Source of the DNA: Chryseobacterium gallinarum
GTDB lineage: Bacteria > Bacteroidota > Bacteroidia > Flavobacteriales > Weeksellaceae
Direction: 5' to 3'
Length of the DNA: 64,000 nucleotides
NCBI RefSeq assembly: GCF_001021975.1
Contig: NZ_CP009928.1
Span: 4,282,001-4,346,000, forward strand
Under the pieces are notes generated by a model. The model saw nothing but the letters and a program-made list of their open reading frames with translations. It had not been told where the DNA came from and did not search any database. Every line of letters begins with the position of its first letter. Position 1 is the stretch's first letter. Below are positions 5,182-59,684 of this stretch, piece by piece. Position numbers and translations under genes: made by a program.

Positions 5182-5364
5182 CTACATTTTATTTTCATGC
5201 TGCTGTTTCCAGATTTCCAAGGCTATCCCGGTGCGGTAAAAGAACTTCTCATCTCCCCATTTTTCTAAGGCATCCGCACCAAACTGCATGGAACCGAAAA
5301 CAATCAGATATTCAATCCCAGAATCTCTTTTTTCAAAGTCCTGTTTTCCTTTTTCGTTAAGCAC
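5182..5364 (-). CDS. Tail assembly chaperone, downstream (T) frame
   Basis: A 60-codon frame (GTG at 5364) overlapping the end of the upstream chaperone gene by 8 bp in the +1 (equivalently -2) frame, and 5 bp before the tape measure. This is the G/G-T arrangement of tail chaperones, where the second frame is expressed as a C-terminal extension by ribosomal frameshifting. The GTG has no convincing initiation context, so a frameshift fusion is more likely than a free protein. The sequence includes FGSMQFGADALEKW and ends HENKM. Confidence 0.65.
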   Translation of the reverse strand: MLNEKGKQDFEKRDSGIEYLIVFGSMQFGADALEKWGDEKFFYRTGIALEIWKQQHENKM

Positions 5365-5794
5365 GAAAAAACTCGCCTTTCTTGCTTTCTAAGATGTTAT
5401 TCATCTGAAGGAATACAGCAATAAACAGGTCTTCATCCTCGATTAACTGATAATCTCCATCAAGCCATAACTGTTCGATAATCATGGCAACGGCTTTAGA
5501 CATTCCATTCATTCCGATAGCAGTCAGATAATCTCCTAAGTCTTCAGCCAATGGTGGACGTAGTACGGCCAGAAAATCATCTACTTTAAGGTAAATAAGA
5601 TCACGATTTCCGTATTCAACCTTCCATTGGTTCAATTGAGCCTCTGTAAACCTTTCAATAAAAGGAGTTTTGTCTTTTACCTCATTCTTTTTAGAATTGG
5701 CTTCTTTTTCTGCCTCTTTGGATTTTCTTTTAGCAAAAATGGACTGTAGTTTTTCGTTGGTATCATTTGATACTGTATTAATCGATTGTTTCAT
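5357..5794 (-). CDS. Tail assembly chaperone, upstream (G) frame
   Basis: A 145-residue protein between tube and tape measure. The first 50 residues are Lys/Glu-rich and probably disordered; the rest is helical and hydrophobic/acidic (FLAVLRPPLAEDLGDYLTAI, then IEDEDLFIAVFLQMNN). Size, position and the overlapping short downstream frame identify it as the G-type tail assembly chaperone that recruits tube subunits to the tape measure. It ends four codons after a T6C slippery run. Confidence 0.75.
   Translation of the reverse strand: MKQSINTVSNDTNEKLQSIFAKRKSKEAEKEANSKKNEVKDKTPFIERFTEAQLNQWKVEYGNRDLIYLKVDDFLAVLRPPLAEDLGDYLTAIGMNGMSKAVAMIIEQLWLDGDYQLIEDEDLFIAVFLQMNNILESKKGEFFRA
5364..5371 (-). 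promoter_or_regulatory. Candidate frameshift site in tail chaperone pair
   Basis: On the minus strand the zero frame reads GAG TTT TTT CGT GCT TAA. The T6C run would let Phe-tRNA on the second TTT re-pair in the +1 frame as TTC, or in the -2 frame as TTT, both of which enter the downstream chaperone frame. TTT CGT is the same pair used for +1 shifting in influenza PA-X, and Mu uses a -2 shift at this place in its own chaperone genes. Direction cannot be decided from sequence. Confidence 0.5.
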
Positions 5795-10872: not shown

Positions 10873-11313
10873 ATGGCCGCAAGTAAACAGCAACAACGCG
10901 AACATGCAAAGCTTCTTTATGTAGGGGAAAGAATTACCTTAAAAGAAGTGGCAGAGCGTGTGAAGGTAACTGAGAAAACAGTTGGAAAATGGTGTAAAGA
11001 GGACGGGTGGGACGCCTTAAGAAAAAGTCTCTTAACAACGAGGCATACCCAATTAGCAAGATGGTATAATCAATTAGATACCATTTCCTCTAAAATTGAG
11101 GAGAGAGATAACATCCCTACCAATACGGAGGCTGACACCATGAGTAAAATTACTTCCAATATTCAAAAACTGGAAGTAGAAATCGGACTTGGTGAAATTA
11201 TAGAAACCGGGAAAAAGGTTATCACATTCATTCAGCAAATCAATCTTGACGATGCCAAACTATTCAAAAATTATTTTGACGAGTACATTAATAACCGGGT
11301 AAGAAATGGCTAA
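10873..11313 (+). CDS. Small terminase-like DNA-binding protein (DUF1804-type)
   Basis: A 146-residue protein with an N-terminal helix-turn-helix (about 20-48: ITLKEVAERVKVTEKTVGKW) and a long helical C-terminus, as in Mu gp27/DUF1804 small terminase subunits that recognise phage DNA ends. The stop overlaps the large terminase start by 8 bp, strengthening the pairing. It opens the + strand head operon, whose upstream region is shared with the divergent capsid operon. Confidence 0.8.
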   Translation: MAASKQQQREHAKLLYVGERITLKEVAERVKVTEKTVGKWCKEDGWDALRKSLLTTRHTQLARWYNQLDTISSKIEERDNIPTNTEADTMSKITSNIQKLEVEIGLGEIIETGKKVITFIQQINLDDAKLFKNYFDEYINNRVRNG

Positions 11314-12841
11314 GAGAAAAAAAACAGATAAAGAGTGGCTTTCGGAATGGAAGGAATTCGGTGATAATATTGACAACGCTACCCCTATTGATCTTACAGA
11401 ATCGTCTGTCGAAAAGCTTAAAAGAATTAAGAGGCTTGAAACTGACAACGAAGCGTGGTTTAAATTCTATTTCCCAAACTTCTATACCTCTGAACCTGCT
11501 GATTTTCACTTAGTGTCCACTAAAAAAGTCATGCAAAACTCTGAATTTGAATTAGTGCGGTCATGGGCCCGTGAGCTTTCCAAATCGGGACGAACAATGA
11601 TGGAAGTTTTAAAGCTTGCTTTAACCGGGAAAAAGAAAAATATCCTTTTAATTTCAAATTCTTACGATAATGCCGAAAGGCTACTAATGCCATATATGTT
11701 AATCCTTGAAAGGAATAACAGGATTATAAATGATTACGGGGCACAAAAGAAAATAGGCTCTTGGGAGGCCGGAGAGTTTACCACCCGAAAAGGAGTGGCT
11801 TTCCGGGCTCTGGGTGCCGGACAGTCACCAAGGGGTACACGTAATAATGAAATTCGTCCCGATGTAATTCTGATTGATGATATCGATACTGACGAAGATT
11901 GCAGAAACCCCGAAATCATAGAAAAGCGTGTCAAATGGATAGAAGAAGCATTAATACCTACCAGATCCATATCTAATGGGCTTTTATTGATTACCTGTGG
12001 AAATGTCATAGCAGATTATTGCTGTGTTACCGTAATGGGTGCCAGGGCTGACTCATGGGAAATTATCAACATCCGGGATGAGAATGGAAAATCTACATGG
12101 CCACAGAAAAACACAGAAAAGCTAATCGATATTGCTTTGCGTAATATGAGCTATGAAGCCATGCAAAAGGAATACTATAATAATCCTATGGATGGAGGGA
12201 AAGTATTTAAAAACCTGATTGATAAGTCACCGTTTAAATTAAAACAGTGTGATTATGTCATTATCTATGCTGACCCTGCTACCAGCAATAGCGAGAGTAA
12301 AAAATCTTCGAGCAAAGCTATTGGGATTATTTCTAATAAAGGAATGGATTATAATATCCATAAAGCATGGGTGGATCAAATGACGAATGCCAAATTTATC
12401 GAATATCTTTTTGAAGCCTATATCATATGTAAAAATGCAGGAGTAGATGTGATCTATGTATATATAGAAAACAATACACTCCAAAATCCCTTTTATGAGC
12501 AGGTCCTTTTACCGCTGATTTACGGAAAATCGAATGAACTCGGTATTATTCTGCCTATCCGTCCTGATGAGAGGAAGAAGCCAGAAAAATGGACCCGTAT
12601 TGAAGGTAATCTGGAGCCCATGATCCGACTGGAAAGATTAACCTTCAATGAAAAAGAAAGCGATAACCCTCATATGATGAGACTAAAGGCACAGTTTAAA
12701 AATGCCAATGCAAAAGCAAAGCTTCTGGATGGTCCCGACATGGTAGAAGGAGCAGTATCTATTATTGAGGAAAAAAGAGCTGCCGAGGCTTTGGGCGCTG
12801 TAGAAATGTGGGAACGTAAACCAAGCCGTCACAGGCTTTAA
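11306..12841 (+). CDS. Terminase large subunit
   Basis: A 511-residue packaging motor. The ATPase part has a degenerate P-loop-type segment around 89-101 (RELSKSGRTMMEV), a Walker B at 187-194 (VILIDDID) and a coupling-type LLLITCGN at about 226-233. The C-terminal RNase H-like nuclease begins with YADPAT (Asp323). It translocates DNA into proheads and cuts it; in Mu-like phages cutting is headful with host flanks. It precedes the DUF1320 and portal genes in one operon. Confidence 0.9.
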   Translation: MAKRKKTDKEWLSEWKEFGDNIDNATPIDLTESSVEKLKRIKRLETDNEAWFKFYFPNFYTSEPADFHLVSTKKVMQNSEFELVRSWARELSKSGRTMMEVLKLALTGKKKNILLISNSYDNAERLLMPYMLILERNNRIINDYGAQKKIGSWEAGEFTTRKGVAFRALGAGQSPRGTRNNEIRPDVILIDDIDTDEDCRNPEIIEKRVKWIEEALIPTRSISNGLLLITCGNVIADYCCVTVMGARADSWEIINIRDENGKSTWPQKNTEKLIDIALRNMSYEAMQKEYYNNPMDGGKVFKNLIDKSPFKLKQCDYVIIYADPATSNSESKKSSSKAIGIISNKGMDYNIHKAWVDQMTNAKFIEYLFEAYIICKNAGVDVIYVYIENNTLQNPFYEQVLLPLIYGKSNELGIILPIRPDERKKPEKWTRIEGNLEPMIRLERLTFNEKESDNPHMMRLKAQFKNANAKAKLLDGPDMVEGAVSIIEEKRAAEALGAVEMWERKPSRHRL

Positions 12842-12853
12842 AAATATTAAACT

Positions 12854-13315
12854 ATGTTAGTAACACCGGAAGATTTAGTCACAGAATTATATCCTGAGGT
12901 GGTTAATGAGATCACCAGAACATCAAAGGAAGAGCAGGAAGCCCAAATCAGAGCTGCGGAAGATTTTGCCAAAGGTTTTCTGTTTAAATACGATTTAAAA
13001 GCCCTTTTTGGAACTGTGGCCACTGCCCCGACAGTTAAAGACGAGGGCCTTAAAAAGTGTATCAAAATTATTGCTGCCTACTTTTTAGTAAGAAAGGCTA
13101 ACCCAGCAGTACAGCTCGATCTGTTTCGAGATGACTATATGATGATGATCGGAACCAAGGAAGAGCCGGGATGGCTGTATGAAATCAGAAACGGAGCCAT
13201 TAATCCGGAATGGCCGTATAAACCTGACGATCCTGATACACCCGATATTGATGAGAGTACCATGTATGATGATGTATACTGGACATCTACCAAAAAACGC
13301 ATAAACCGATTTTAG
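12854..13315 (+). CDS. DUF1320-like head protein (Mu gp36-like)
   Basis: A 153-residue protein opening with LVTPEDLVTELYPEVVNEIT, the family signature of DUF1320 proteins (Mu gp36), small head-completion or connector subunits. The middle has a helix rich in Lys/Ala and the C-terminus is acidic and Pro/Asp-rich (WPYKPDDPDTPDIDE). It lies between terminase and portal, 2 bp before the portal start. Confidence 0.75.
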   Translation: MLVTPEDLVTELYPEVVNEITRTSKEEQEAQIRAAEDFAKGFLFKYDLKALFGTVATAPTVKDEGLKKCIKIIAAYFLVRKANPAVQLDLFRDDYMMMIGTKEEPGWLYEIRNGAINPEWPYKPDDPDTPDIDESTMYDDVYWTSTKKRINRF

Positions 13316-13317
13316 CA

Positions 13318-14661
13318 ATGAAAAAGAAAAGAAACAAAATATCTGCTGAACAACCTCACGAAGTTTACCCACCATTTTTAATTCATGATCTAACCATAGT
13401 TTCTCCGGACCGAAGCCGGAAAGACATTGGTTCCCTTAGGGATGCTATAGTAAGTGCTGAGCAGGTTTATTTTCCAAACAGGGCTTTACTCTATGACCTG
13501 TATCATGATATCTATACTATGGATGGCTACTTATCCGGTATTATTGATAAAAGGATTGATTTTGTACTCAATAAAAAATTAAAGTTCTACGATAAGGACG
13601 GAAAAGATGTTGAGGAGATCTCAAATTTGATGCAGGGAGAAACAGGACGTGACCTGATTCGTAAAATTATGGAGTCTGTATTCTGGGGAATTTCAGGGGT
13701 TGAATTTAAAATCGGGGGAGAGTTTGCTTTTGATGAAATCCCAAGAAAACACATTAAGCCCGAAAAAGGGCTGATTACTAAAAGTCAATACGGCATTTCT
13801 GCTGATGCAGGATATAGAATAGATGAGCTTCCATTTGTCTGGGTTATTGGCAAAAAGGATGATTTAGGAAAGCTCCTGGCCTGTTCCATGTATGCTATTT
13901 ATAAACGTGGAAACTTTGGAGACTGGGCCCAATACGTCGAAATATTCGGGCAGCCAGTCCGTATTTTGGAATACGACGCCTACGATACAAAAACGAAACA
14001 GGAGCTTAAAGGAATGCTTGACAAAGCTGGCAATTCTCTTGCTATGATGATCCCTAAACAGGCAAAATTCCAGATGCTGGACGGAAAACAAAGCAACGGG
14101 GACGGAAAGCTTCAGCTTTCATTTAAAGATGCCTGTAATGAAGAAATGGCGATCCGTATTCTGGGTAATACACAAACTACATCAAGTACACGGGGCTCCG
14201 GTTATGCTCAGGCCAAAGAGCATGGAGAACAACAGGAACAGATTACTGCTTCGGATTTGACAATGGTAGAGAATTACCTGAATTCAGATCACTTTTTAAA
14301 TATCCTTAGATCCTATGGATACAATATTGAGGGCGGCTATTTCGGATATGAAAAAGAGTTGGATCCTGAAAGGCTAAAGCAACGATTGGAAATCGATCTT
14401 CAGGTATCGGAAAAAGTTCCCATTGCCGATGATTATTGGTATGATACCTACGGTCTGCCAAAACCCGACAATTACGATGAGCTTAGAAAAAAAATGGATG
14501 AAAAAGCCAATTTCAACCCTATGCCCCCGGAAAAACAGCCCGGAGAGAAAGAAGAAAAGAAGGACAAAGAAACCGAAAACCTTTCTGATTTTTCCAAATC
14601 TAAATTCCTGGATCCGTTTTTTAAAAAGCTTGCTGATTTTTTCGACCACGCCCGACTATAG
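13318..14661 (+). CDS. DUF935 portal protein (Mu gp29-like)
   Basis: A 447-residue portal of the DUF935 family. Recognisable parts are YLSGIIDKRIDFVLNKKL near 60-78, EFAFDEIPRKHI, FGQPVRILEYDAYDTKTK and RILGNTQTTSSTRGSGYAQA, the last being a family hallmark near 280-300. It forms the dodecameric ring for DNA entry and exit. The zero frame ends at TAG 14659-14661 inside a perfect hairpin, 15 bp after a T TTT TTC heptamer; a -1 shift there would fuse it to the minor head protein. Confidence 0.9.
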   Translation: MKKKRNKISAEQPHEVYPPFLIHDLTIVSPDRSRKDIGSLRDAIVSAEQVYFPNRALLYDLYHDIYTMDGYLSGIIDKRIDFVLNKKLKFYDKDGKDVEEISNLMQGETGRDLIRKIMESVFWGISGVEFKIGGEFAFDEIPRKHIKPEKGLITKSQYGISADAGYRIDELPFVWVIGKKDDLGKLLACSMYAIYKRGNFGDWAQYVEIFGQPVRILEYDAYDTKTKQELKGMLDKAGNSLAMMIPKQAKFQMLDGKQSNGDGKLQLSFKDACNEEMAIRILGNTQTTSSTRGSGYAQAKEHGEQQEQITASDLTMVENYLNSDHFLNILRSYGYNIEGGYFGYEKELDPERLKQRLEIDLQVSEKVPIADDYWYDTYGLPKPDNYDELRKKMDEKANFNPMPPEKQPGEKEEKKDKETENLSDFSKSKFLDPFFKKLADFFDHARL

Positions 14662-14667
14662 TCGGGC
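14637..14667 (+). promoter_or_regulatory. Predicted -1 ribosomal frameshift site and stimulatory hairpin
   Basis: The portal frame reads GAT TTT TTC GAC, containing a canonical X XXY YYZ heptamer T TTT TTC at 14637-14643. Six nucleotides later a perfect 18-bp palindrome GCCCGACTATAGTCGGGC (14650-14667) forms a 7-bp GC-rich stem with a TATA loop. The zero-frame TAG is inside it. A -1 shift enters the minor-head frame, which is open from 14637 and has no ATG, GTG or TTG before 14841. All elements of programmed -1 shifting are at textbook spacing. Confidence 0.7.
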
Positions 14668-15932
14668 AGCTTAACAATTTATATGCCCATCATTGTGAGG
14701 TATGTGGTGGGATCATAGAAGACCTCTCCGACGCAGAAGATAACTGGGATGATATCTACAATGAAATTGCTAAGGAGCTCCTTGAAAATAATGGTATTGC
14801 CATTAATGCAGGTTTACACCTAAAGACTGCCGGAAAACTTTTGGCTGCCATAGATAAAGGTATCGGAGATGATAATTTAACTGATGACCAAGCCAGAAAG
14901 AGGCTGACTGAAAAACTAAAGCAGAATATTTACGCCTTTTCCGCCGCTAAATCTTTCACCCAAATGCAGTATTATAGGGATATGATGATTGGGGAAGACG
15001 GCTCTATCCTGGGAAAAAGTTCCTATATCAAAAAAATAGCAGATACAGGAGAAATTTTTAATAAGAAATTTTTAGAGGCAGAATATGAAAATGCTTATTA
15101 TTCTGCGGTTATGGCAGACCAATGGGAGCGCTATGCAGAGGATGAAATTTTACAATACTCAACAGCTGGAGACAGCCATGTAAGGCCCTCACACGCTGCA
15201 TTAGACAAATATACCGCTCCAAAAAGCCATCCGTTCTGGATCAATAATTATCCACCTAACGGCTGGGGATGCAGATGTATAGCCACTCCCGGAAAAGCAG
15301 GGTATCAGAACCGTTTAACGGATAAGGAGGCCGGAAACCAGCTAAAAGCGGAAAATAAGGACACTCCATTTTATAATAATGTAGGACTGTCAAAAGTCAT
15401 ATTCAAGGATAACCATCCATATTTTGTGAACTCCAGGGGAAAGGAACTCAATCTGAGTTGGGAACAATACGGAATGCCTGATCTGGCTAAAATAAGATCA
15501 GAAGAGCTGCCTGCCTATAAGATAACCACAAAAGAAGATTATCTGAATTGGTGGGAGAAACAACCTAAAAGTAACGAAAATGATATTTCTATTAAAGATA
15601 TCCTGGGTAATGAAATTATTCTGGAGAGTGCTTCCGGCAAAAAAGGAAGGGAATCCGACTATTTTAAACATCATATTATCAGAAAGGAGGCTGACAAAAG
15701 ATATGAGTATGCTACCGAAGTAAAAAATGTTTTAAAAAACCCCGACGAAGTCTGGATGAACCATAAAGATAGTAATACCAAAATTTATCTAAAATATTAT
15801 GAAAATGGAACATTAAAGCTGGTAGTAAATGAAAACAACAAAGCCGAAACAATGTTCTTAATTGAAAAAGACGATAAATCGGAGCTCAATAAATTAGGAG
15901 AAGCCCGAAAAGGAATCCTGATGTACCGATAA
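14643..15932 (+). CDS. Minor head protein (SPP1 gp7/Mu gp30-like) with nuclease-like tail, read in -1 frame
   Basis: The frame continues from the slippery site as a linker with HHCEVCGG (a possible zinc knuckle), then the minor-head domain. The phage Mu F/gp7 core is visible: SAAKSFTQMQYYRDMM, TAGDSHVRPSHAALDKYTAP and NYPPNGWGCRCI (the hallmark). The last 110 residues (HHIIRKEADKRY, LKNPDEVWM, and GEARKGILMYR) match the phage-barnase-EndoU-colicin-RelE-like (PBECR) nuclease pattern. The first ordinary start codon, TTG at 14841, would delete conserved sequence, so expression as a C-terminal extension of the portal is preferred. Confidence 0.8.
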   Translation, partial: RPRPTIVGQLNNLYAHHCEVCGGIIEDLSDAEDNWDDIYNEIAKELLENNGIAINAGLHLKTAGKLLAAIDKGIGDDNLTDDQARKRLTEKLKQNIYAFSAAKSFTQMQYYRDMMIGEDGSILGKSSYIKKIADTGEIFNKKFLEAEYENAYYSAVMADQWERYAEDEILQYSTAGDSHVRPSHAALDKYTAPKSHPFWINNYPPNGWGCRCIATPGKAGYQNRLTDKEAGNQLKAENKDTPFYNNVGLSKVIFKDNHPYFVNSRGKELNLSWEQYGMPDLAKIRSEELPAYKITTKEDYLNWWEKQPKSNENDISIKDILGNEIILESASGKKGRESDYFKHHIIRKEADKRYEYATEVKNVLKNPDEVWMNHKDSNTKIYLKYYENGTLKLVVNENNKAETMFLIEKDDKSELNKLGEARKGILMYR

Positions 15933-59161: not shown

Positions 59162-59168
59162 GGTTTAG

Positions 59169-59241
<73 letters not shown>

Positions 59242-59279
59242 GTGTATTTTTAGAGCGTTTACCGACAACGCTTGCTTAG

Positions 59280-59352
<73 letters not shown>

Positions 59353-59390
59353 GTGTATTTTTAGAGTGTTTACCGACAACACTTGCTTAG

Positions 59391-59463
<73 letters not shown>

Positions 59464-59500
59464 GTATATTTTCAGAATGTTACCACAAACATTCATTTAG

Positions 59501-59573
<73 letters not shown>

Positions 59574-59611
59574 GTGTATTTTTAGAGCGTTTACCGACAA
59601 CGCTTGCTTAG

Positions 59612-59684
<73 letters not shown>

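Follow-up and report, generated by a model that had tools for sequence, protein, structure and literature searches.

The portal gene of a Mu-like prophage in Chryseobacterium gallinarum very probably ends in a programmed −1 ribosomal frameshift signal, which would join the portal protein to the minor head protein encoded directly downstream. The site lies in the prophage head module, within a 64,000-nucleotide stretch of the 4.63-Mb genome (hereafter the window; contig NZ_CP009928.1, positions 4,282,001 to 4,346,000 of the forward strand, assembly GCF_001021975.1). It displays a heptamer in the proper phase, a structure 6 nt downstream, an open coding −1 frame and compensatory changes in the structure, which are the canonical marks of −1 frameshifting. 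The elements concerned, in window coordinates, are:

13318 to 14661, + strand: portal gene (Mu gp29-like), 447 residues, C terminus ...LADFFDHARL, Portal_Mu match at 7.8e-62.
14637 to 14643, + strand: slippery heptamer T TTT TTC in the portal-frame phase (X XXY YYZ), kept in relatives.
14644 to 14649, + strand: spacer of 6 nt, the commonest best-stem spacer in relatives found by protein search.
14650 to 14667, + strand: predicted stimulatory hairpin GCCCGAC-TATA-GTCGGGC, a perfect 7-bp stem with covariation in relatives.
14637 to 15932, + strand: −1 open reading frame with a linker (FFRPRPTIVGQLNNLYAHHCEVCGG), a MuF minor-head domain and a C-terminal PBECR2 nuclease-like domain (Pfam, AlphaFold2).
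14841 to 14843, + strand: TTG, the first possible start codon of the −1 frame, within predicted helix 58-76 and after about 60 conserved codons.

This anatomy had been proposed in an earlier sequence-only reading of the window, and the sequence agrees with it throughout. The portal frame reads GAT TTT TTC GAC across the heptamer, the hairpin begins 6 nt further on and contains the zero-frame TAG (14659-14661), the minor head frame is open from 14637 and meets no ATG, GTG or TTG before 14841, and the predicted product of about 871 residues is recovered as 442 + 429 = 871. Stimulators of frameshifting usually begin 5-8 nt 3' of the heptamer (PMC4066793). The 91-nt junction region is more stable than expected (fold z = −2.98), with one of 200 shuffles equally stable; no Rfam family matched the junction, and the exact palindrome is present in three IMG/VR stretches.

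We infer from this layout the slippage itself, its efficiency and its role. Most ribosomes would terminate at the TAG inside the hairpin and release the plain portal of 447 residues; some would slip back by one base on T TTT TTC, assisted by the hairpin 6 nt downstream, and continue in the MuF minor-head frame to produce a portal-head fusion of 871 residues. The slip rate would then set the number of ring subunits carrying the head domain and its C-terminal effector. Known portal rings have 12 subunits; a mixed ring would still fit, and a few copies of the effector would be kept inside the head and delivered with the DNA.

The same junction recurs widely in relatives. Loci, designated by L numbers, were classified by a script using portal and head profiles, with a heptamer defined loosely as any XXXYYYZ, into an overlapping arrangement (the head frame lies at −1 and runs over the end of the portal) and a fused arrangement (portal and head joined in frame). 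Across four sets found by protein search, 140 loci in total, the −1 overlap is accompanied by an in-phase heptamer in 103, and no −1 overlap without an in-phase heptamer was present among the 140. The heptamer is T TTT TTC in 92 of the 103, the others being mainly A AAA AAG, G GGA AAG, A AAA AAA and T TTT TTT. The sets overlap (L002 and L180 are apparently the same phage), and the overlapping arrangement is represented by 92 distinct junctions, the window included, from hosts that include Chryseobacterium, Flavobacterium, Prevotella and Bacteroides. The conservation of heptamer and stem in Mu-like phages of Bacteroidota, which the sequence-only reading had named as a check, is thus observed; relatives with an ordinary head start and neither heptamer nor hairpin, which it had named as contrary evidence, were looked for, and the outcome favours frameshifting. 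It had missed the other heptamers and the reversed, in-frame arrangement described below.

Of the 38 viral loci that an IMG/VR protein search with the portal gave, 29 have the −1 overlap together with a heptamer (28 T TTT TTC), three are fused, one is at a contig end and five have the head in the +1 frame (L035-L039, distant, best identity 23-27%). Among the 33 viral loci L002-L034 the script read 28 as T TTT TTC with the head at −1, and in these 28 the zero-frame stop falls 0-5 codons beyond the matched portal end; four of the remainder are in frame through the junction, and L029 called for longer inspection. A profile of 15 portals retrieved 109 relatives from genome contigs, where a search with the head protein alone gave no match; the 80 kept comprise 62 with −1 overlap and heptamer (57 T TTT TTC), seven fused, seven with no head, three in +1 and one broken. 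In L225, scored as +1, the stop is likewise preceded by T TTT TTC and followed by GCCCCG..CGGGGC; L227 has its head in the +1 frame as in L035-L039, and L202 retains the heptamer next to a broken head frame. Three portal genes (L211, L212 and L213) have no MuF partner detectable downstream.

The third set holds 14 loci (11 of the same genus, one of the same order and two other prophages of the window's genome), of which seven show −1 overlap and heptamer (four TTTTTTC, two AAAAAAG, one GGGAAAG), six are fused and one is of another kind. In distant prophages of the same genus the junction reads CCA AAA AAG (L045, L046) or CCG GGA AAG (L054), with a long-loop stem read by eye (GCCTGCTCAAAT...ATTTGAGCAGGC in L046), and L047, L048 and L052 have AGT/AAT TTT TTC, the latter two with a GGGCTAAAAAA..TTTTTTAGCCC stem. 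Among eight named phage records, five carry a heptamer (three TTTTTTC, two AAAAAAA), one is fused and two have separate genes. The A-run heptamers, with the head frame at −1, belong to Winogradskyella phage Peternella_1 and Flavobacterium phage fF4; CGT TTT TTC followed by a GCCCCG..CGGGGC hairpin is found in the Bacteroides phages p00 (hankyphage), jmh79_hp and BKO1-TP1. Eight Bacteroidota phage records with annotation were examined, and none marks the portal coding sequence as joined. The named records with the overlapping arrangement annotate the head as its own gene or beyond a gap: it is a separate gene or hypothetical protein in p00, jmh79_hp and BKO1-TP1, and a 98-nt annotation gap covers the junction in Peternella_1.

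A scan of DNA for the pattern itself matched 116 stretches; it is biased by design, since the surroundings of the heptamer and the beginning of the 5' arm were fixed. Of 80 sites examined, 56 coincide with the end of a portal, 53 of them with a recognisable −1 head frame; the remaining three of the 56 are two in-frame fusions (L072, L126) and a locus truncated by its contig (L083).

Nucleotide choice at the heptamer appears constrained beyond the encoded residues. A Phe-Phe pair is present at 85 distinct junctions of the overlapping arrangement, and 80 of them write it TTT TTC. In 84 of the 85 the preceding codon has T in third position, whichever residue it encodes (D, S, R, G, N, P or Y), the background fraction of T-ending codons in the same portals being 0.51 for D, 0.28 for S, 0.22 for R, 0.26 for G and 0.48 for N. 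Elsewhere in these portals Phe-Phe is written TTTTTC in 10 of 31 cases, and the 14 distinct fused loci with the pair divide into eight TTTTTC and six TTTTTT. Nine loci lack Phe-Phe at the junction. Because the loci are related, no p-value is claimed for this bias.

The hairpin recurs together with the heptamer. At TTTTTTC sites found by protein search, a stem score of at least 15 is reached in 78 of 79 overlapping and 8 of 8 fused junctions, with a best-stem spacer of 6 nt in 52 of 79 and 8 of 8, respectively; control in-phase TTTTTTC sites in other long open reading frames reach that score in 7 of 39. Left out of the hairpin test were six of 74 sites, whose upstream frames had 97-134 codons and gave no match to the portal profile. 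Covariation was examined in an alignment of 36 sites chosen from 65 non-redundant ones (loop of at most 8 nt, stem of 6 bp or more), with counts taken over the 7-bp stem in 34 distinct rows against 500 shuffles. Paired cells (86.6% vs 78.3 in shuffles), both-sided changes (22 vs 7.3) and the covariation score (0.249 vs 0.103) each exceed all 500 shuffles, and one stem pair (20-29) occurs as GC, AU, CG, UA and UG. When arms are swapped among the sites of the hairpin test the mean falls from 20.6 to 15.1, and 11% of swaps reach the observed median; among fused junctions the values are 99.7% observed vs 79% swapped, the observed arms having been preselected as best stems. Both swap controls are weakened by the GCCC/GGGC motif shared among loci.

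The −1 frame has the marks of a head gene. Open over 14637-15929 (431 codons), it matches Phage_Mu_F (4.7e-11) and PBECR2 (1.7e-11) in Pfam, the MuF/gp30 domain passing the PF04233 cut-off with 43.9 bits vs 29.6 and the PBECR2 domain that of PF18810 with 44.8 vs 27.1. Head-morphogenesis proteins are the best matches in a BFVD structure search (E 1.9e-15); neither a fold search (E<=0.001) nor a profile search (E<=1) of the PDB gave a match, and the C-terminal part gives weak fold matches to colicin D-type tRNase domains (E 0.035-0.11). Two PHROG profiles, phrog_35074 and phrog_220, cover both portal and head. On the portal side, the match to Portal_Mu (PF06074) is 210 bits vs a cut-off of 23.9, and the closest named relative is a Chryseobacterium ureilyticum prophage with 74% portal identity.

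The part of this frame that precedes its first possible start bears on the mode of expression. In codons 9-68, between the zero-frame stop and the TTG, the nonsynonymous difference per site (pN) is 0.19-0.32 vs a synonymous one (pS) of 0.68-0.93 in eight comparisons (11 relatives were named, from which L044, L183 and L184, apparently duplicates, drop out), so that, judged by these substitution patterns, the region is under purifying selection. An alignment of 33 heads shows no variation at residues F1, F2, R3, P6 and G10 of the −1 product, F1 and F2 being fixed by construction as the rows were trimmed at the heptamer. An AlphaFold2 model of the product from 33 sequences (mean predicted local distance difference test score 86.6) is of low confidence to about residue 33 and then predicts confident helices at 38-50 and 58-76. 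Initiation at the TTG would cut the second helix; this, together with the roughly 60 conserved codons before it, suggests that the TTG is probably not used. The signal is kept with head frames ranging from about 260 to 530 codons, so the slip is probably there to link portal and head generally and not for the nuclease alone.

The fused relatives supply a second, reversed form of the same signal. Nine distinct in-frame fused junctions keep TTTTTTC with a GC stem exactly 6 nt downstream: L031, L033, L072, L172 (a Porphyromonas phage), L217 (Pedobacter zeae), L220, L226, L234 (Rikenella) and L235; the portal frame of L220 has an upstream stop. Their −1 frame ends 8-38 codons past the heptamer, so that a slip here would yield a portal without a head, the reverse of the overlapping arrangement, as read from the frames. 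The distance to the −1 stop is no shorter than the chance estimate and was not used as evidence. Retention of the signal in the fused form could be a relic; its arms differ and yet pair (GCCCGG/CCGGGC, GCCCCGG/CCGGGGC, CCCCTCC/GGAGGGG and others), which argues for present use. In a quick tree of 118 portals (90 overlapping, 13 fused; three rows on long branches) the arrangement changed at least seven times, or at least four times when the nine hairpin-bearing rows alone are counted as fused. L217 and L226 cluster with the overlapping L223, with a Shimodaira-Hasegawa-like approximate likelihood ratio (SH-aLRT) of 99.

Several further observations concern fused loci. In L031 (2579 onward) and L033 (5268 onward) the short −1 product would end ...ELSRQ(V/I)(D/N)ELY...HQH, resembling the LNxLYxxHC helix that opens the extension in overlapping loci, and on this resemblance the frame change seems to have taken place just after that helix. 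The window's own genome has two further Mu-like prophages with in-frame fused portal-head frames of 810 and 849 codons. The fused portals of L049, L050, L051 and L056 (the last from the window's own genome, C1:453909-454883) have AAATTTTAA in common close to the junction; slipping by −1 there would lead straight into a stop. Their AAATTTT was considered as a further class of the reversed signal and set aside, the hairpin spacers being uneven (3-12 nt by eye), and the A-runs of fused L053 and L057 were likewise not counted.

The strongest alternative, which we nevertheless consider improbable, is that the head is translated separately, through an internal start (the TTG at 14841 or a non-standard codon) or reinitiation past the portal stop. 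Mu-like phages outside Bacteroidota do so: in Mu, D3112, FP_Mushu and martha, F is a gene of its own whose ATG overlaps or adjoins the upstream stop, and no heptamer occurs in the last 120 nt of the open reading frame before F in these four (in martha, an annotated hypothetical protein preceding F). Salinibacter phage M8CC-19 also lacks the heptamer, the head identity of its next gene not being established. In lotta8-1 and FPSV-S1 the genes are separate, with an ATG directly after the stop, and in hankyphage-type records the annotated head ATG is similarly placed over or just past the TGA. However, separate translation would leave the heptamer, the spacer and the covarying hairpin unexplained; it is at odds with the selected codons that precede the first start in the window, and with relative L004, which has no ATG, GTG or TTG before codon 107.

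A number of points weigh against frameshifting, or against the strength of the case for it. A start codon lies within 20 codons past the heptamer in 42 of the 92 distinct overlapping loci (an ATG in 11 of 92), and at those loci the head may be initiated separately. Synonymous sites are saturated, the synonymous divergence (dS) being undefined in six of the eight comparisons. Two of the five covariation measures are weak (the number of pairs with both-sided change is reached by 300 of 500 shuffles and further pair types by 29 of 500), the 36 of 65 sites were preselected for a short loop and a stem no shorter than 6 bp, the hairpin beats all 100 of its own shuffles in just 33 of 65 sites, and part of the pairing is due to a GCCC/GGGC arm common by descent. 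Finally, no head gene was detected with the portal in 7 of the 80 genome loci, two of which break off within the portal itself, and a few genome loci are decayed.

Less probable still is transcriptional slippage on the T run, which would create a fusion message. The site does contain a run of six T, and at L194, L199 and L206 the junction has runs of about nine or ten T instead of TTTTTTC; these loci may rely on such slippage, and L194 and L199, which are fused, show no clear signal beyond the T runs and weak folds. Six T is short for transcriptional slippage, though, and the GGGAAAG junctions have no long homopolymer. The mixed-letter heptamers of relatives, together with phase, spacing and stem, argue against it, a heptamer in phase with a hairpin at about 6 nt being the ribosomal layout (PMC4066793). 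That a former single gene was split by sequencing error, decay or an inserted palindrome, the last of which the sequence-only reading had offered as its alternative, might be suggested by the fused relatives, including the two in the same genome, but is scarcely credible given that the identical junction type recurs in dozens of separate contigs and named genomes, that nine fused junctions retain heptamer and hairpin, and that the palindrome is a single copy in the genome even with up to two mismatches allowed, on which the insertion alternative fails.

How does a programmed frameshift at the portal end compare with known systems? In lambda G/GT and SPP1 17.5/17.5*, a −1 slip near the 3' end gives a minority, C-terminally extended product (PMC5009743), and the putative slip of SPP1 17.5* uses a UUUUUUC heptamer (PMC6316719). 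The position near the 3' end of a virion-assembly gene and the heptamer of 17.5* are alike here; unlike the tail chaperones, the proteins concerned are the portal and the minor head protein, expected in the virion, and what is added is a large folded domain ending in a nuclease-like part. Nor is the gene placed as G/GT is, before the tape measure: it is the portal gene, and the likely tail-assembly chaperone of the same prophage is at 5357-5794 on the − strand. The latter ends GAG TTT TTT CGT GCT TAA with an apparent extension (...WGDEKFFYRTGIALEIW...) in the +1/−2 frame, and is likely a second recoding site in this prophage; a −2 shift has been reported for phage Mu (PMC5009743).

Frameshift-extended virion proteins are known from T7/T3 gene 10, Lactobacillus phage A2 and Listeria phage PSA (PMC5009743; PMC3185693). 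There too one gene gives two structural proteins with a common N terminus, but the extended proteins, as described in the accessible text, are major capsid or tail proteins, not portals. The reversed arrangement has its counterpart in dnaX, where the zero frame encodes the long product (tau) and the slip the short one (gamma). These are reported at a 1:1 ratio (PMC5009743). The fused portals likewise have a long zero-frame product and would gain a short one by slipping; unlike dnaX, another protein and host are involved, and a single family has this signal in both polarities. A literature search, with few subscription journals covered, yielded no description that we recognised of frameshifting at a portal-minor head junction, and in the accessible part of the Atkins 2016 review the word 'portal' does not occur, its phage passages treating tail chaperones and capsid or tail extensions. 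Frameshifting itself is well known, and the portal as its target was not found described in the accessible literature.

In SPP1, the portal gp6 brings a few copies of gp7, of the MuF family, into the procapsid, and just about 25% of the virions that lack gp7 are infectious (PMC6316719). MuF proteins carry effector domains, and PBECR has been reported in fusion with MuF and portal domains (PMC5512222). Targeting a MuF-family protein to the head interior through the portal in few copies would be common to both; unlike gp6/gp7 and Mu gp29/gp30 (F), which are separate genes, a single chain would be made here by a slip in part of the copies. From the anatomy of the site, the gp6/gp7 pair and the effector-bearing MuF proteins, we infer by analogy that the slip may set stoichiometry.

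Around the junction, the head module also contains:

10873-11313: DUF1804/terminase small subunit (Pfam, open reading frame).
11306-12841: open reading frame sized like the large terminase (by position alone; no Pfam match).
12854-13315: open reading frame sized like an adaptor (no Pfam match).
From 16056: Phage_tail_S protein (Pfam).

Elsewhere in the window, five tRNA-Met (CAT) genes stand in tandem at 59168-59684 on the − strand, spaced 110-111 bp apart.

Portals are usually regarded as uniform rings. We lean towards the view that in the transposable phages of Bacteroidota a −1 frameshift fixes the mix of plain and head-bearing subunits within one ring, that the default frame has been swapped repeatedly, and that the symmetry of the ring is thereby broken and a counted load of injected effectors installed. 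If true, the ring would be a mixture of two protein forms, their ratio determined by translation, with the MuF protein and its effector covalently tied to the gateway of the DNA. Phages relevant to the gut would be among those affected, the hankyphage p00 and its kin and the Prevotella prophages included, and the phages with overlapping and fused arrangements would provide a natural set for testing how recoding sets virion stoichiometry.

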